Assembly (NCBI GenBank): GCA_000024525.1
Contig: CP001769.1
Span: 868,001-932,000 of the forward strand
DNA: 64,000 nt
DNA from: Spirosoma linguale DSM 74
GTDB taxonomy: Bacteria; Bacteroidota; Bacteroidia; Cytophagales; Spirosomataceae
Direction: 5' to 3'
The notes beneath the pieces were generated by a model, which saw nothing but the letters and a program-made list of their open reading frames with translations, ran no database searches and was not told the origin of the DNA. The position numbers and the translations under genes are program-made. Below, in pieces: positions 38,389 to 59,098 of the stretch. Positions within the stretch are counted from its first letter, which is position 1; each line of letters opens with the position of its first letter.

Positions 38389-41300
38389 TCAGGGGCGGGC
38401 GAGTAACTGATCAATCGGTATAACTTCGCCGTTTCGAATAACCTGCTCTACATTAAGCGCATCCTTTATATGAGTGAGTGGATCGCCGTCAACAATCACC
38501 AGATCGGCTAGCTTGCCCGGTTCAACCGATCCAAGATCTTTACTGACGCCCACCGTTTCGGCCGCCCATAAAGTAGCCGAACGCAAGGCCTGATAGGGTG
38601 TTAGCCCGGCGCTCACAAACGATTGAAGCTCGGTATGCAGGCTCATGCCGTAGGGTACGAAAGGACTGTCGGTGCCGGTTGTAACGTGGGCTCCGGCGTC
38701 AATAAGGGCTTTTACACCCTTTTGGAGATTGCCGAAGTTGCTCAGGTAACCCGGACTGAGTTTGGCGTACTGCGCTGAACCGGCTTGCAGGGCATTCGTA
38801 TACTCTTCCGAATAGAAGGTCTTATACTGCCGGTTTTCGAGTAAGCTGGGATCGTTGGTTGTTAGTACCGAAAAACCACCCTGAAGCGAAGCCGTAGGGG
38901 TAATGTTCATGCCCGATTTGGCCAGTAACTGAATTACATCCTGATAGCTGTGGTTCATGGCCGTAATCTTGGGCGAATAGCCCCGCCGACTGGTGCCGCC
39001 GATGTGTTCTACCGCATCGACATCATAACGCATGGCCGGGAAAATCTCATGGGAGGATACCGGTAATCCGTGGGCATGGGCAAAGGCTGTAATTCGCTGC
39101 TGTTTATCATCGGGCATCCGAACGTAAGTTTTGATCAGGTCATAGTCCAATTGTACGGCCCGGTTGAGTTCACGGTCAAGCTGCTCGTCGGAGTTGATGC
39201 TGGTGGCGGCACCGTAATAAATTCGGTTGCCATCGGTTAAGCCGCCGGTAAAGAATTGTCGGGGACCGGGTCGCACGCCACTTGCCCAGGATTCTTTTCG
39301 TTCGAGGGCATCGTACGGATCAGCGCCGGGCTCGCGGATGGAAGTGATGCCGAAGGACAACCACAACCGACCGATTTTTTCACCTACCATTGAGTGCTGA
39401 TGGGTGTGCATCTCGAACAAGCCGGGAATAACCGTTTTTGTTGAGGCATCGATTAATTTACCCGAACGACCAACCTGATGCGGGAGAATAGCCTTGATTC
39501 GGTGCCCGTCAATGATAATGTCGACGTTGTTGCGGTAGGTGTTGGCCGTCCCATCGAATAAGCGCCCGGCATGGACAACAACCGTTCCGGTAGGCTGGCT
39601 GATTGTCCAGGCTAGGTCCATCGGGTGGGTCTCAATGTGGCCGTCTGCCAGATAAACCTGTTTGAAAATGTCAGTTGCCAGAAATAGCAGGCTTTTCGAA
39701 TCGCTTGTCCAGGTAGGGGTCTCGGCCTGCTCGGTGGTTAACTGGCGTGGTGTACCAATCGGGGTGCCATCCGGTTTAACGTCGGTAATCCACAGCAGGC
39801 CATCAAGCACGTACGCCATTTTAGTGCCGTCCGGCGACCAAACAGGTCCATTCTGCCCCCTGGTAGCCAAGCTATGGTTGGGTGCGGGCGACACATAGCG
39901 GTCGTTTTTTCCGTCGAAGGAGAGGAGCAGCACCTCACTTACCCCTTCGCGGTAGCGCGACGAGTAGGGGTGAAGGGCCGACACCGCCAGGGTCTTTCCA
40001 TCCGGCGACCAGCTTGCCTGGCTCGGAACGAATAAGGATTCGTGCAGCTTTCTGGTTTTAGGAGCGGTCACGTCGGCCGTGTACGTGACATCGGCCACAT
40101 ACAGCGTACTGCGGCCCCAGGCGTTTCGCGGGTCGCTTTGATAAAAGGCGATCTTGCTGCCGTCTGGTGACCAGGTTGGGTAATGAAGGTCATCGGACAT
40201 ATCCGCCAGAAGCCGGTCCTGTCCGGTTTTTAAGTCACGAATCCAGACGTCCATGTTCCCGTTTCGGTCAGATACGTACGTTAGTTTACTACCATCCGGT
40301 GACCAGCCTGGTTCGACTTCCATGGCTTTCCCCTGCGTCAGGCGTTGAGGAACCTTGTTGCCTTTAGTCAACAGCCATAGATCACCCAGCGCGGCAAAGG
40401 CAATCTGTTTGCCATCGGGCGAAATGGATGTTCCTTTAATGCCTTTGACAAGCTGAGGTTTTTGGGTGTCGAAATCATAGGTTTTTCGTTTGTAGCTATT
40501 CCGGGGCAGCGTAATAACGACCTGAAACGGAATTACCTGCGCCGTTGTACTACCCAACCGACCCCGTTTCAACAAACCGTCGGCCGTGTACAGATAACTA
40601 TCCATCGAAAACCAGCTCGTTCGGAAAGGGAAAACGTCTTCTTTGGCCTCGGTTAGCATCCTGGCTTTACCATCGCTTACGGATACGCTTGTTAGTCCGC
40701 TCTGGGTATTGTTCAACAAATTATAGAACAACTGCGATCCATCGGGGTGCCACGATACACCAGCCAGCTTACTCATTGTGGGTGCCACGAGCTTTTCCGT
40801 ACCGCCCAACGGCAGGATGTAAACGCCGGGAGCATCCGTTCGATCAGAAATATACGCGATCTGCTTTCCATTCGGCGAGTAAGCGGGGTTAAACTCATTG
40901 CCGGAGCCGTTGGTCAGCTGGGTCAGTTTGCCATCGGCCAGATTAAGCTGCCAGATGTCGTAGTTACCACTTCTGTCCGAAGCAAAAACCAACTGTTTCC
41001 CATCCGGCGACCAGTGGGGTTCTCGATCATCATAAATGCCATTTGTTAGCTGCTGCGGTTTGCCGCCGGTTGCTGAAACTGTCCATATATGGTACCGTCC
41101 GTCCCAGAACGAATGGAACGCAATCCGCTGTCCGTCGGGTGACCAACTAGGCTGACGGCAATCGCCAAGCGGGTCGGTTAGTGGTTTGGCAACTCCGCCT
41201 GTTGCGGGTAAAAGCCAGATCGTTCCCTGCAAGTCAATGACAATCTGACGTTTATCGGGCGAAAGGTCGGCGGCCATGTTAGTCCCTTCCGTAACAGTCA

Positions 41301-41406
41301 CCCGGATAGAATCGGCCAGGTACGCACGCGAGGTATTCGGCCAGAGATTAATAAGGCAGAATTGTATGGTTGTAAGAAGGAAGAATAGCGAATGGATATT
41401 TTGCAT
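38389..41406 (-). CDS. Secreted TolB-type propeller fused to an amidohydrolase
   Basis: A 1005-residue exported protein with signal peptide (residues 1-29). Residues about 40-620 form WD40/PD40 (TolB-like) propeller repeats, each with W-S-P-D-G-(K/Q). Residues about 640-1000 are a metal-dependent amidohydrolase: VIPGLFEMHTHQHS (HxH metal site), KTYVRMP (Lys), SSHEIFP, EHIGGTSRR and TGTDSPFVPYG (catalytic Asp). Such fusions act on peptides or cyclic amides in the periplasm; substrate unknown. The closest domain relatives are prolidase-like and imidazolonepropionase-like enzymes. It is a single-gene unit with its own terminator. Confidence 0.88.
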   Translation of the reverse strand: MQNIHSLFFLLTTIQFCLINLWPNTSRAYLADSIRVTVTEGTNMAADLSPDKRQIVIDLQGTIWLLPATGGVAKPLTDPLGDCRQPSWSPDGQRIAFHSFWDGRYHIWTVSATGGKPQQLTNGIYDDREPHWSPDGKQLVFASDRSGNYDIWQLNLADGKLTQLTNGSGNEFNPAYSPNGKQIAYISDRTDAPGVYILPLGGTEKLVAPTMSKLAGVSWHPDGSQLFYNLLNNTQSGLTSVSVSDGKARMLTEAKEDVFPFRTSWFSMDSYLYTADGLLKRGRLGSTTAQVIPFQVVITLPRNSYKRKTYDFDTQKPQLVKGIKGTSISPDGKQIAFAALGDLWLLTKGNKVPQRLTQGKAMEVEPGWSPDGSKLTYVSDRNGNMDVWIRDLKTGQDRLLADMSDDLHYPTWSPDGSKIAFYQSDPRNAWGRSTLYVADVTYTADVTAPKTRKLHESLFVPSQASWSPDGKTLAVSALHPYSSRYREGVSEVLLLSFDGKNDRYVSPAPNHSLATRGQNGPVWSPDGTKMAYVLDGLLWITDVKPDGTPIGTPRQLTTEQAETPTWTSDSKSLLFLATDIFKQVYLADGHIETHPMDLAWTISQPTGTVVVHAGRLFDGTANTYRNNVDIIIDGHRIKAILPHQVGRSGKLIDASTKTVIPGLFEMHTHQHSMVGEKIGRLWLSFGITSIREPGADPYDALERKESWASGVRPGPRQFFTGGLTDGNRIYYGAATSINSDEQLDRELNRAVQLDYDLIKTYVRMPDDKQQRITAFAHAHGLPVSSHEIFPAMRYDVDAVEHIGGTSRRGYSPKITAMNHSYQDVIQLLAKSGMNITPTASLQGGFSVLTTNDPSLLENRQYKTFYSEEYTNALQAGSAQYAKLSPGYLSNFGNLQKGVKALIDAGAHVTTGTDSPFVPYGMSLHTELQSFVSAGLTPYQALRSATLWAAETVGVSKDLGSVEPGKLADLVIVDGDPLTHIKDALNVEQVIRNGEVIPIDQLLARP

Positions 41407-41640: not shown

Positions 41641-44313
41641 ATGAATTACAGTGTTTATCTGGTCCCCATCCTTGGCATTATAGGCCTGCTGGTGATGTTT
41701 ACCAAATTTATGTGGGTTTCGAAGCAGGAAGCCGGAGACGCCAGGATGCAGGAAATTGCAGGCTATATTGCAGATGGAGCTATTGCTTTCCTAAAAGCCG
41801 AATGGCGTGTCTTAACGTACTTCGGCATCATCGTTGCCATTCTGCTTGCCTATATGGGTAGTCTGGTACCAAATTCAAGTGCTCTCATTGGTGGTTCCTT
41901 TCTGCTGGGTGCCTTTCTGTCGGCACTAGCCGGGTATATCGGTATGAATATCGCTACGAAAGCGAACGTTCGTACGGCGCATGCTGCTCGTACCAGCCTG
42001 ACAAAAGCTCTGGAAGTGTCCTTCACGGGTGGTTCAGTAATGGGTATTGGTGTCGCAGGTATTGCGGTGCTGGGACTGGGAAGCCTGTTTATTATTCTCT
42101 ATAAACTTTACGTTGAACCATCGGGCGATGTAAATGGTCTGCCGATGGAAAAAGCCCTCGAAGTGCTGGCTGGTTTCTCGCTCGGTGCCGAATCGATTGC
42201 CCTATTTGCACGCGTGGGTGGTGGTATCTATACGAAAGCTGCCGACGTGGGTGCTGACCTCGTTGGTAAGGTTGAAGCCGGTATTCCGGAGGACGACCCG
42301 CGTAACCCGGCAACCATTGCCGATAACGTAGGCGATAACGTGGGCGACGTTGCCGGTATGGGTGCTGACTTATTTGGTTCGTATGTGGCTACCATTCTGG
42401 CTACGATGGTACTGGGTCGTGAGATTACGATTCCAAATGACCCCATCATAGGTCATGCACCCATTGTACTGCCGATGGTGATTGCCGGTCTAGGTTTGAT
42501 CTTCTCCATCATTGCGACCTATCTGGTTCGTGTGAAAGATGATAACGGTAACGTACAGGCTGCTCTGAATCTGGGTAACTGGGCGTCGATTGCGATTACG
42601 CTGGTGGCATCTTATTTCCTTGTCAATGCTATGCTCCCGACAGGCACAATGGAAATCAGGGGTGTTGAATTTACACGTATGGATGTGTTTTATGCCATTG
42701 TAACGGGTCTGGTAGTAGGTGCTCTGATGAGTATCATCACCGAATATTACACCGCTATGGGTCGTCGGCCGGTAATGTCCATTATCCGGCAGTCGGCAAC
42801 GGGCGCGGCTACAAACATCATTGGCGGTCTGTCGGTTGGGATGGAGTCTACAGTGTTGCCAATTCTAGTGCTGGCTGCCGGTATTTATACGTCATATCAC
42901 TTTGCCGGTTTGTACGGGGTGGCTATTTCGGCCGCCGGTATGATGGCTACGACTGCCATGCAGTTAGCCATCGATGCCTTCGGTCCCATTGCCGATAATG
43001 CCGGTGGTATTGCCGAAATGAGTTATTTGCCCGAAGAGGTTCGTGGTCGTACCGACATTCTGGATGCCGTTGGGAACACGACAGCCGCGAGTGGTAAAGG
43101 ATTTGCCATTGCCTCGGCTGCGTTGACGGCGCTGGCGTTGTTTGCCGCTTTTGTAGGTATATCCGGTATCTCAGCCATCGATATTTACAAGGCCGACGTA
43201 CTGGCTGGCTTGTTTGTGGGCGGAATGATTCCATATATCTTCTCTTCGCTGGCTATTGCGGCCGTTGGTCGTGCCGCTATGGCCATGGTTGAGGAAGTGC
43301 GTCGCCAGTTCCGCGAGATTCCCGGCATCATGGAAGGAACCGGCAAGCCGGAGTACGAAAAATGTGTGGCAATCTCGACCCAGGCGTCAATCCGCGAAAT
43401 GGTATTGCCAGGTGCTATCGCACTGACCGTTCCGGTAATTGTCGGGTTTATTTTTGGCCCCGAAGTGCTTGGCGGTCTACTGGCCGGTGTTACGGTGTCT
43501 GGCGTGTTAATGGGTATTTTCATGAACAACGCCGGTGGGGCCTGGGACAACGCCAAGAAGTCGTTCGAAAAAGGGGTTCTGATCAATGGAGAAATGTTCT
43601 ACAAAAAGTCGGAGCCGCACAAAGCATCGGTTACGGGCGATACTGTAGGCGATCCGTTCAAAGATACATCCGGCCCATCCATGAATATCCTGATCAAACT
43701 GATGTCGATTGTGTCCCTGGTTATTGCCCCTTACATTGCGGTGAAGTCTACAACTGCCAGCGAAGGCAATCGGGAAGGAATTACGGCGCAGGGTGGCATG
43801 CATGGTGTTGATCTGGAGAAGTCTACCGCAGCCGAAAACGTAACCGTAACGGAAAATGTACTGAAATTCAAAAACGATAAGACCGGTGTCGACCTGAACT
43901 TGTCGGGCGTTGGTAAAATTGAAGAGCAGCTCATTGAGTTCATCAATTCCGATAAGGCGGTTGACAAAGAGACCTGGTTCGATTTTGACCGACTGACCTT
44001 TGAAACGGGTAAAGCAACCCTCAAGCCAGAGTCGCAGGTGCAATTAGGTAACGTAGCTCAGATTTTAAAAGCGTATCCGAATGTGAACGTTAAAGTTGGC
44101 GGTTATACGGACAATACCGGTAACGCCAATGCTAACCTGAAACTATCGGGCGAACGGGCTTCGTCGGTAGAGGCCGAACTTGAAAAGCTGGGTATCGATA
44201 AAAGCCGTCTGGAAGCTGAAGGCTACGGCCAGGAGCATCCGGTAGCATCGAACGATACCGAAGAAGGCCGGGCGCAGAATCGCCGGATTTCAATGCGGGT
44301 GACCAAGAAGTAA
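41641..44313 (+). CDS. hppA: Membrane-bound K+-dependent ion-pumping pyrophosphatase fused to an OmpA domain
   Basis: An 890-residue protein, about 130-200 longer than usual HppA. Residues 1-710 are the 16-helix pump: the PPi site reads [18 protein letters not shown] (from residue 206) and [24 protein letters not shown] (478-487) has Ala482 and Gly485, the pattern of K+-dependent enzymes, many of which move Na+. After the last helix (about 685-705) comes a linker and an OmpA peptidoglycan-binding domain (about 776-890). In that domain D824 and R839 are 15 residues apart, as in the diaminopimelate-binding pair of OmpA. Known pumps have a periplasmic C-terminus, so the domain is on the right side to grip the wall. 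Confidence 0.93.
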
Positions 44314-44328
44314 TTTAACCATATTGTC

Positions 44329-44367
44329 AACAAAAAGGCCTGCTGAACTCCAGCAGGCCTTTTTGTT
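44329..44367. terminator. Bidirectional terminator between hppA and the adaptor gene
   Basis: A 17-bp perfect stem (44329-44345 with 44351-44367) and loop AACTC, flanked by A- and T-runs on both sides. It can end transcription of the two convergent genes. Confidence 0.88.
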
Positions 44368-44388: not shown

Positions 44389-45606
44389 TCAGCTTCCGAG
44401 CGCGTTATAGATTAACAGCTGATTGGTTGTTACAACCCGGTCGCCGGGAGCAATGCCACTTGCGAGGTAGGTTTTCGTACCGATGGTTTTGTAAATTTCG
44501 ACTTCGCGAACAACAGGCTGATTTTCCTTATTGACCAATACGACGAAATTACGGTTTTTGTCAAACACAACAGCTCCCGCCGGAATGGCTACCCGCTGGT
44601 CACGACCGGCATAGGTAACGCTTACGTTGGCAAACATTTCGGGCTTAAGGCGGTAATCAGCGTTATCGAGCGTGACGCGCACTTTCAGAGTTTTACTGTC
44701 GGGGTCAAGGACGTTAAAAATCTTGTCAATTCGTCCGTGGAAAACCTTATCCGGGTAGGAGATGGTCGTTATTGTAGCTGCGTCACCTTCGTGTACGTTA
44801 GCCAGGTCGGATTCGTAAACGTTAGCCAGCACCCAAACATGGTCGAGGTTAGAAACGGTAAACAGATTCTCGGGGTCATCGGAACGAAGCTCCATGCCCG
44901 ATGAGGCCGATTTCTCGACGATAAAGCCACTCATGGGAGATTTTACGAGGTAAACAGAGCCCGTACCACCAACAATCCGACGTCGTTCGGCAACACGGTT
45001 AAGCTCGCCCTTGGCCGCTTGTAGCTGTTCCTGACTGGCTACCAAGTCCTTCTGTGAGCTAAGACCGGCTTTGGTCATATCTTCTGTTACCTGCTGGTTT
45101 TTCTGCGCAACGGCAAATTGACCGCGAGCGGCTACGGCCTGTTGTTCGAGGTCGGCAAGGTCACCAGAGCGAATTACGGCCAGTACCTGCCCCTTTCGAA
45201 CGTAATCACCCAAGTCCGCCTTCAGCGTCTCAATATGGCCGCCTACCAGCGGAAACACTTTAACCACCTGATCCTGGTTGAAGGTAATCTTACCCGTCAG
45301 GTTAAGCTCATTTTTGGCATTCTCTAGCTTTGCGGTATCAAACGTAGCCGTGGCGAGCAAGTTGGTTTCCCGGCGTGATGGATCAGCAGATGCCTCACCT
45401 GATTTTGACTCACTATGGCAGCTCATTAAACCCGACAGCAGCAAAGCGCCTGTCAGGACCTGAATACCAATCCGGATAGGGCTGAGAAATTTGGTAAGCT
45501 GCCCAACGACTAACTGATTCGGTATCGGGACTAACTGACGGCGCAACCTGAGCCACCGTGTATAAAGTGGATAGTTGTTTATTGGGAAAAGCGGGTGTTT
45601 GTTCAT
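44389..45606 (-). CDS. RND efflux periplasmic adaptor lipoprotein (CusB/HlyD type)
   Basis: A 405-residue membrane-fusion protein. The lipobox is GLMSC with Cys at 63; the 45-residue basic N-terminus before it is unusually long, but no alternative start was found. Then follow a barrel-sandwich half (VFPLVGGHIETLKADLGDYVRKGQVL), a helical hairpin (about 150-200), the second half (YLVKSPMSGFIVEKSAS) and a beta-barrel domain (LDHVWVLANVYESDLANV). Family members link an inner-membrane RND pump to an outer-membrane channel. No pump or channel gene is adjacent, so partners must be elsewhere. Confidence 0.85.
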   Translation of the reverse strand: MNKHPLFPINNYPLYTRWLRLRRQLVPIPNQLVVGQLTKFLSPIRIGIQVLTGALLLSGLMSCHSESKSGEASADPSRRETNLLATATFDTAKLENAKNELNLTGKITFNQDQVVKVFPLVGGHIETLKADLGDYVRKGQVLAVIRSGDLADLEQQAVAARGQFAVAQKNQQVTEDMTKAGLSSQKDLVASQEQLQAAKGELNRVAERRRIVGGTGSVYLVKSPMSGFIVEKSASSGMELRSDDPENLFTVSNLDHVWVLANVYESDLANVHEGDAATITTISYPDKVFHGRIDKIFNVLDPDSKTLKVRVTLDNADYRLKPEMFANVSVTYAGRDQRVAIPAGAVVFDKNRNFVVLVNKENQPVVREVEIYKTIGTKTYLASGIAPGDRVVTTNQLLIYNALGS

Positions 45607-58387: not shown

Positions 58388-59098
58388 TTATTCGCCAATC
58401 TTGCCATCTTTGGCGTCGCGCTGTAATTGCTTGTTTGCAAAAACAGCTACGTCGACCCGACGGTTTTTACGACGTCCTGCTTCGGTACTATTATCAGCCA
58501 CGGGCTGAGCTTCTCCATAGCCAATCTCATCAACTCTGGACGTCTTCACGCCCTGCGATTCAAGGAAACTACCAACGGCCTTAGCTCTTTGTTTCGAAAG
58601 TTCTAAATTGTGAGAATCCGATCCCGTTGCGTCAGCATGACCTTCAATTCGGACGTCCGTATCCTCATATTTATTAAGCGATTTTGCGAATTCGATTAGC
58701 TGTTGCTTCGTTTCCGGCTTCAACGCATATGAATCGACATCGAATAGAATATCTGATCCGAGCGAAACCTTTATCCCTTCGCCAACCCGTTCTACCTGGG
58801 CATTGGGCATCTGACGTTTTATTTCTTCCGCCTGTTTGTCCATCCGCCGACCAATAACGGCGCCGGCAGCACCACCAACGGTAGCACCCAGAATAGCACC
58901 CAAAGCCGTGTTACCTGTTTTGTTGCCTATTATACCGCCAATAACAGCGCCACTACTGGCACCAATTACACCACCCTGCTGGGTTTGATTCAATCTTTTT
59001 GAAGACTTGCAACTTGTTAAAACATTACCCGATAAAATACCTGCCGCCATAAGCACTGCAAGGGATTTTTTTCCGGCTGATTTCAACTGATTATTCAT
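58388..59098 (-). CDS. OmpA-family lipoprotein with glycine zipper (YiaD-like)
   Basis: A 236-residue lipoprotein with lipobox NVLTSC (Cys near 30). Residues about 42-85 are a glycine-zipper membrane-active segment (GAVIGGIIGNKTGN, GAILGATVGGAAGAVIG). Residues about 110-220 are the OmpA peptidoglycan-binding domain (ILFDVDSYALKPETKQQL, GHADATGSDSHNLELSKQRA). In the last motif the Asp and Arg are 15 residues apart, as needed for diaminopimelate contact. It ties the outer membrane to the wall. It closes the stress module. Confidence 0.93.
   Translation of the reverse strand: MNNQLKSAGKKSLAVLMAAGILSGNVLTSCKSSKRLNQTQQGGVIGASSGAVIGGIIGNKTGNTALGAILGATVGGAAGAVIGRRMDKQAEEIKRQMPNAQVERVGEGIKVSLGSDILFDVDSYALKPETKQQLIEFAKSLNKYEDTDVRIEGHADATGSDSHNLELSKQRAKAVGSFLESQGVKTSRVDEIGYGEAQPVADNSTEAGRRKNRRVDVAVFANKQLQRDAKDGKIGE

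Follow-up and report, generated by a model that had tools for sequence, protein, structure and literature searches.

What does an OmpA domain of the peptidoglycan-binding kind do at the end of an ion-pumping membrane pyrophosphatase (m-PPase)? The question is raised by a gene of Spirosoma linguale DSM 74 in a stretch of 64,000 nucleotides (contig CP001769.1, positions 868,001 to 932,000), which we call the window in its full length. We think it probable that this gene codes for a wall-tethered, K+-dependent H+ pump of the type with an ion-gate glutamate at position 5.43 (Glu-5.43), whose C-terminal OmpA domain binds diaminopimelate (DAP) of peptidoglycan in the fashion of MotB. The gene, mapped with its parts in Table 1, is one open reading frame (ORF) without internal stop, from the ATG at 41641 to the TAA at 44311-44313. 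A first-pass annotation, made from the sequence letters, had described a complete pump, and Pfam H_PPase indeed matches residues 13-695 over its full profile (positions 1-645 of 645; E 1.6e-265, 883 bits), with the pump body ending at ~700 rather than at the annotated residue 710; likewise, the OmpA domain said to follow through a linker in the same frame was recovered by Pfam at residues 786-881 (E 5.2e-22, 78.5 bits, cut-off 27.2) of the single 890-residue product.

In a model of the tail comprising residues 701-890, the disordered tether leads into a beta-hairpin and helix, with block means of the predicted local distance difference test (pLDDT) of 81, 85 and 94 over residues 741-770, and then into a confidently modelled OmpA fold, matching the Acinetobacter baumannii domain solved with an m-DAP peptide (3td5). 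Scanning of residues 706-890 revealed no hydrophobic segment, and a DUF748 match in the tail, being below its cut-off, was set aside as spill-over of the part preceding the OmpA domain. According to the available text of PMC5974059, DAP binding by A. baumannii OmpA involves Asp271 and Arg286; D824 and R839, their counterparts by motif and spacing, are separated by the same 15 residues. This pair, singled out in the first-pass annotation for its DAP-binding spacing, proved near-invariant in the fused relatives examined: among 150 distinct tail sequences, many of them close kin, R839 is present in all and D824 in 148, with Glu in its place in both exceptions (P0031 and the truncated L080). F787, G821, G827, L835, R856, G861, G863 and R881 are invariant where present in these tails, for which mean entropy was 0.85 bits in the OmpA domain vs. 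1.71 bits in the linker. The distance from the last transmembrane helix (TM16) to the OmpA domain is 58-90 residues in 51 pumps, with ~35 of these residues disordered in the S. linguale tail model; a tail of this kind could span the gap to the wall, a reach of ~100 angstrom for a MotB-like anchor.

The fusion is not confined to this genome. With residues 700-890 as query, 565 proteins were retrieved at E <= 0.001, and all 120 matches listed carry both Pfam domains, most at a length of 870-905 residues; the closest named among them are from Spirosoma, and P0002, with 890 residues, is 97% identical over the tail (700-890). Within the host family, the Spirosomataceae, the pump is present in 90/101 genomes, and at a threshold of E < 1e-10 to the S. 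linguale tail the OmpA module was found on 52 of the 85 pumps extracted (all but two, G423 and G452, of 87 full-length places, with four partial places left out), a count that takes in the truncated L080 and L241 and the divergent L072. A search for the domain pair among Cytophagales proteins had been proposed in the first-pass annotation, and with this outcome one of the refutations named there, a sequencing error joining two genes, fails. A tree of 111 pump bodies, built by a quick method with long-branch warnings from a non-random sample of loci chosen for long or short frames, requires 15 changes of the fused state, and well-supported branches force at least 8 of these. Beside 22 of the 33 unfused pumps (all except the 11 loci L250-L260), no other ORF of at least 60 residues matching the module was found in the 1.5-4 kb to either side (less at contig ends), and for these loci a split of the gene, as opposed to loss of the module, was rejected. 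The truncated L080 and L241 belong to one genus that also holds complete and absent forms, an apparent decay series of the domain as far as the sequences go; within the motif region, L241 still has Asp and Arg despite its truncation.

Where present, the OmpA part is under strong purifying selection: in ten pairwise comparisons of nonsynonymous to synonymous change (dN/dS), several of them with dS > 1 and with members common to several pairs, values ranged from 0.003 to 0.039 in the pump and from 0.020 to 0.340 in the linker, and the nine pairs computable for the OmpA part gave 0-0.129. Retention of the pump for want of a soluble pyrophosphatase was ruled out, PF00719 being found in 97/101 host-family genomes, S. 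linguale included; its 8.49 Mb genome has a single PF03030 match and one soluble-type PF00719 pyrophosphatase.

The co-factor and ion can be predicted from a few residues. The first-pass annotation had called the pump K+-dependent from its motif, and we agree: the 10-residue K+-type motif lies at residues 478-487, and with K486 taken as 12.50, position 12.46 is Ala. Lys at 12.46 marks K+-independent m-PPases in Table 1 of PMC10897367, as far as the available text goes, and occurs in four pumps of our compared set; from its Ala, we predict the S. linguale pump to be of the K+-dependent type. If R191 is set to 5.50 and D243 to 6.50, following the scheme in the available portions of PMC10897367 and PMC6882861, the ion-gate glutamate (E184) falls at 5.43, and neither 6.53 (G246) nor 6.57 (A250) is Glu. 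The same portions report Glu at 5.43 for the H+-PPase of Flavobacterium johnsoniae, their sole named example of this type. Because the ion-gate glutamate shares its position with that H+ pump, we predict that the S. linguale protein is a K+-dependent H+ pump, although its name in the database makes it a Na+ pump. That name comes with the NCBIfam model NF001955, 'sodium-translocating' (1272 bits, cut-off 1059); the Glu at 6.53 that marks Na+-PPases, as in T. maritima, is a Gly here, and we believe that this label probably does not fit the Glu-5.43 subfamily.

Glu at 5.43 is shared by 52/52 fused and 32/33 unfused pumps of the host family (a pattern search missed five pumps, each of which has Glu on direct reading), the lone departure being L060, an unfused second copy encoded alongside a fused pump in its genome. 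It is also found in all 80 loci obtained with Flavobacterium queries (the best 80 of 524, F. johnsoniae not among them), none of which carries the OmpA module. Beyond TM16, 190/191 Glu-5.43 pumps (80 of them the Flavobacterium kin, and some loci chosen by length) continue into a tail of at least 20 residues, vs. 5/29 Ser-5.43 pumps. From these sequences, such a tail looks like a trait of the Glu-5.43 subfamily, with OmpA as one among several cargoes. Flavobacterium-type pumps L102-L111 bear non-OmpA tails, most of them Cys-rich, with no Pfam match in those of L104 and L106. A third tail type, ~105 residues long and containing an NGK stretch, follows TM16 in the Glu-5.43 pumps L087-L089 from another family of the same class; in L088, the one checked, it has no Pfam match.

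For the wall-tethered pump, we envision the following arrangement. The C-terminus would exit TM16 on the periplasmic side, as the first-pass annotation held and as is expected from the residue numbering along TM16; a short disordered tether would be followed by the hairpin-helix and then by the OmpA domain gripping DAP in peptidoglycan; and the pump homodimer would present two OmpA domains, held at the wall like a MotB stator. The benefit would most likely be positional, with the pump fixed or spaced, or the inner membrane linked to the wall. Tethering to peptidoglycan, as the annotation had put forward, is in our opinion a good inference, and nothing in the analysis supports the envelope sensing that it also suggested. 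Several points weigh against tethering: 1) with so few residues disordered, wall reach would need a near-extended tether or opening of the hairpin-helix; 2) modelling at full length gave a poor result (mean pLDDT of 55.4, from an alignment of 43 rows of close relatives) that was not used for topology; 3) 33/85 host-family pumps have no OmpA domain, and two of them, L051 and L058, retain a stretch recognisably like the fused linker, which points to loss and not to primitive absence; on both these grounds, the pump persists without need of the anchor. In addition, OmpA folds are able to serve without peptidoglycan binding.

These points bear on a different proposal, namely that the OmpA domain is a passive, near-neutral appendage: the periplasmic tail, being permissive, would have picked up a wall-binding domain that matters little to the cell. 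The patchy distribution, with repeated loss, the forced changes on the tree and the truncated forms, would be expected of such an appendage, and the near-universal tail of Glu-5.43 pumps implies that the site tolerates additions; however, the purifying selection on the OmpA part, the near-invariance of the DAP pair and retention of the module across many genera and in other lineages speak against it, and we regard it as unlikely, albeit worth weighing. A regulatory anchor, in which wall engagement by OmpA alters pumping as plug and peptidoglycan control the flagellar stator, has a precedent in MotB/PomB, where wall binding is coupled to ion flow (PMC9093738, available text), and the modelled hairpin-helix ahead of the OmpA fold may fit it. 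Nevertheless, the model places disorder (residues 701-735), and no plug-like helix, straight after TM16, the linker is poorly conserved compared with the OmpA domain, and domain-less pumps are common, leaving this proposal improbable in our assessment. It is a long shot that the wall gates the activity or placement of the pump, with the OmpA domain attaching to peptidoglycan that is new or under stress and so concentrating or switching on H+ pumping driven by pyrophosphate (PPi) at sites of wall and lipid-linked precursor synthesis, processes that release PPi. An artefact of assembly or sequencing that fused two separate genes into this frame is virtually excluded, as the same architecture recurs in every match listed for the tail query and in 52/85 pumps from S. 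linguale and other genomes.

Returning to the wall-tethered pump, the pairing of its two domains is found beyond the host family. A second family of the same class has seven fused pumps, comprising L013, assigned to Chryseobacterium nepalense by a named match, five more with the same genus label and L024 from a sister genus; both domains are present in all 120 matches listed (of 945) for a Chryseobacterium-type search. In the Rubricoccaceae, L082 equals a protein of Rubricoccus marinus, and at least 11 proteins have both domains (11 of the 120 matches listed). The tail of L082 comprises a BON-like piece ahead of OmpA, just below the Pfam cut-off, and the Rubricoccaceae pump is of the Ser-5.43/Glu-6.53 type. 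In a tree of the modules, with 26 of 58 forks open and several very long branches, those of Rubricoccaceae group with other OmpA proteins and those of the Chryseobacterium group form one clade of uncertain placement. Judging from these sequences and counting the Burkholderiales cases in the available text of PMC11210485, the pairing very likely arose several times. P0221, from a record named Lupinus albus, is a fused pump of the Chryseobacterium type, which probably entered the plant assembly as bacterial contamination.

The host family also has proteins in which a cytoplasmic-type DUF937 domain and one hydrophobic segment stand where S. linguale has the pump: L137 1498-2700 (-), L139 1495-2850 (-), L140 562-1917 (+) and L145 5058-6440 (-), called by Pfam except for L140, which was called by likeness to L139; in L137 and L139, visual inspection showed the segment to lie between DUF937 and OmpA. 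The module of L137 shares 55% identity with that of the S. linguale pump and is nested among pump modules in the tree, although the pump of the L137 genome has no OmpA module; the sequences suggest module exchange in this case. Modules of L139, L140 and L145 fall outside the pump modules.

How does the S. linguale protein compare with known systems? The pairing is already in print for Burkholderiales: m-PPases with a C-terminal OmpA-like domain are reported in Paucibacter and other members, their role left open, in the available text of a PeerJ 2024 review (PMC11210485). By its description, the main example there is K+-insensitive with 810 residues, whereas the S. linguale pump is the K+-dependent Glu-5.43 type with 890; the words Spirosoma, Flavobacterium, Cytophag- and Bacteroidetes are absent from the main text of that review. 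PMC4602150 was rejected as a prior report since, in its available text, the pyrophosphatase and OmpA genes are on separate clones. No paper naming the fusion in Bacteroidota was found in the open-licence literature, most subscription papers being outside the search. What is new here is an account of where the fusion occurs and has been lost within one Bacteroidota family, and of its presence in Chryseobacterium and Rubricoccaceae; added to this are the assignment to the Glu-5.43 type, conservation of the DAP pair, the model of the tail and a parallel with PsaB of Gloeobacter violaceus (7f4v chain aB). PsaB is likewise a multi-span energy-conserving membrane protein with a C-terminal OmpA domain (755-864), which retains the TD and LS..RA motifs, its membrane part being unrelated to pyrophosphatase. 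Structures of OmpA domains from MotB/PomB and from TagL of the type VI secretion system match the S. linguale module as well, none being a pyrophosphatase. Gloeobacter PsaB is sited in the cytoplasmic membrane, and TagL is an inner-membrane protein. Together with the DUF937-OmpA proteins that have a hydrophobic segment, these show that the first-pass annotation was too narrow in placing OmpA domains normally on outer-membrane or motor-stator proteins. As for the wall itself, MotB/PomB is anchored at peptidoglycan across a linker (PMC9093738, available text), and a word search for peptidoglycan in the available text of the paper on the 7f4v structure, photosystem I of Gloeobacter (PMC9000952), yielded none.

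In the window, the fused gene is solitary, both flanking genes being on the opposite strand. The convergent neighbour (44389-45606) is efflux-adaptor-like, and the inverted repeat between the two, absent from the output of an automated scan and seen by direct reading, is likely a terminator common to both genes. A second OmpA protein in the window, 58388-59098 (-), has a glycine zipper and is YiaD-like (the likeness being our own label); it accounts for one of the genome's 25 PF00691 matches. At 38389-41406 (-) lies a 1005-residue protein with PD40 beta-propeller repeats joined to an amidohydrolase domain.

Table 1. The fused gene, its parts and the adjoining repeat, in window coordinates
Feature	Position	Strand	Basis
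Fused gene, membrane pyrophosphatase with C-terminal OmpA domain, 890 residues	41641..44313	+	ORF, Pfam
Pump body, residues 1-700; last helix TM16 ~679-700	41641..43740	+	H_PPase match; PDB relatives 4a01, 4av3, 8b37
E184, position 5.43, ion-gate glutamate	42190..42192	+	Alignment to VrPPase; pattern over loci
A482, position 12.46, predicted K+-dependent type	43084..43086	+	Motif reading; Table 1 of PMC10897367 (available text)
Disordered tether, residues 701-735, pLDDT <50	43741..43845	+	Model of residues 701-890
Beta-hairpin and helix preceding OmpA fold, residues 740-770	43858..43950	+	Model of residues 701-890
OmpA (peptidoglycan-binding fold) domain, residues 784-890	43990..44310	+	Pfam, model, PDB matches
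D824, counterpart of Asp271 of A. baumannii OmpA	44110..44112	+	Motif and spacing; conserved in 148/150
R839, counterpart of Arg286 of A. baumannii OmpA	44155..44157	+	Motif and spacing; conserved in 150/150
Perfect 16-bp inverted repeat with 5-base loop, between fused and convergent genes	44330..44366	.	Read directly

Primary pumps are commonly pictured as freely mobile in the membrane. Together with the Gloeobacter photosystem I parallel, a recurrent and selected fusion of a pump with a wall-binding domain suggests that energy-conserving machines are fixed to the wall in some bacteria. In addition, the finding puts in question the ion by which a large group of 'sodium-translocating' proteins is named.
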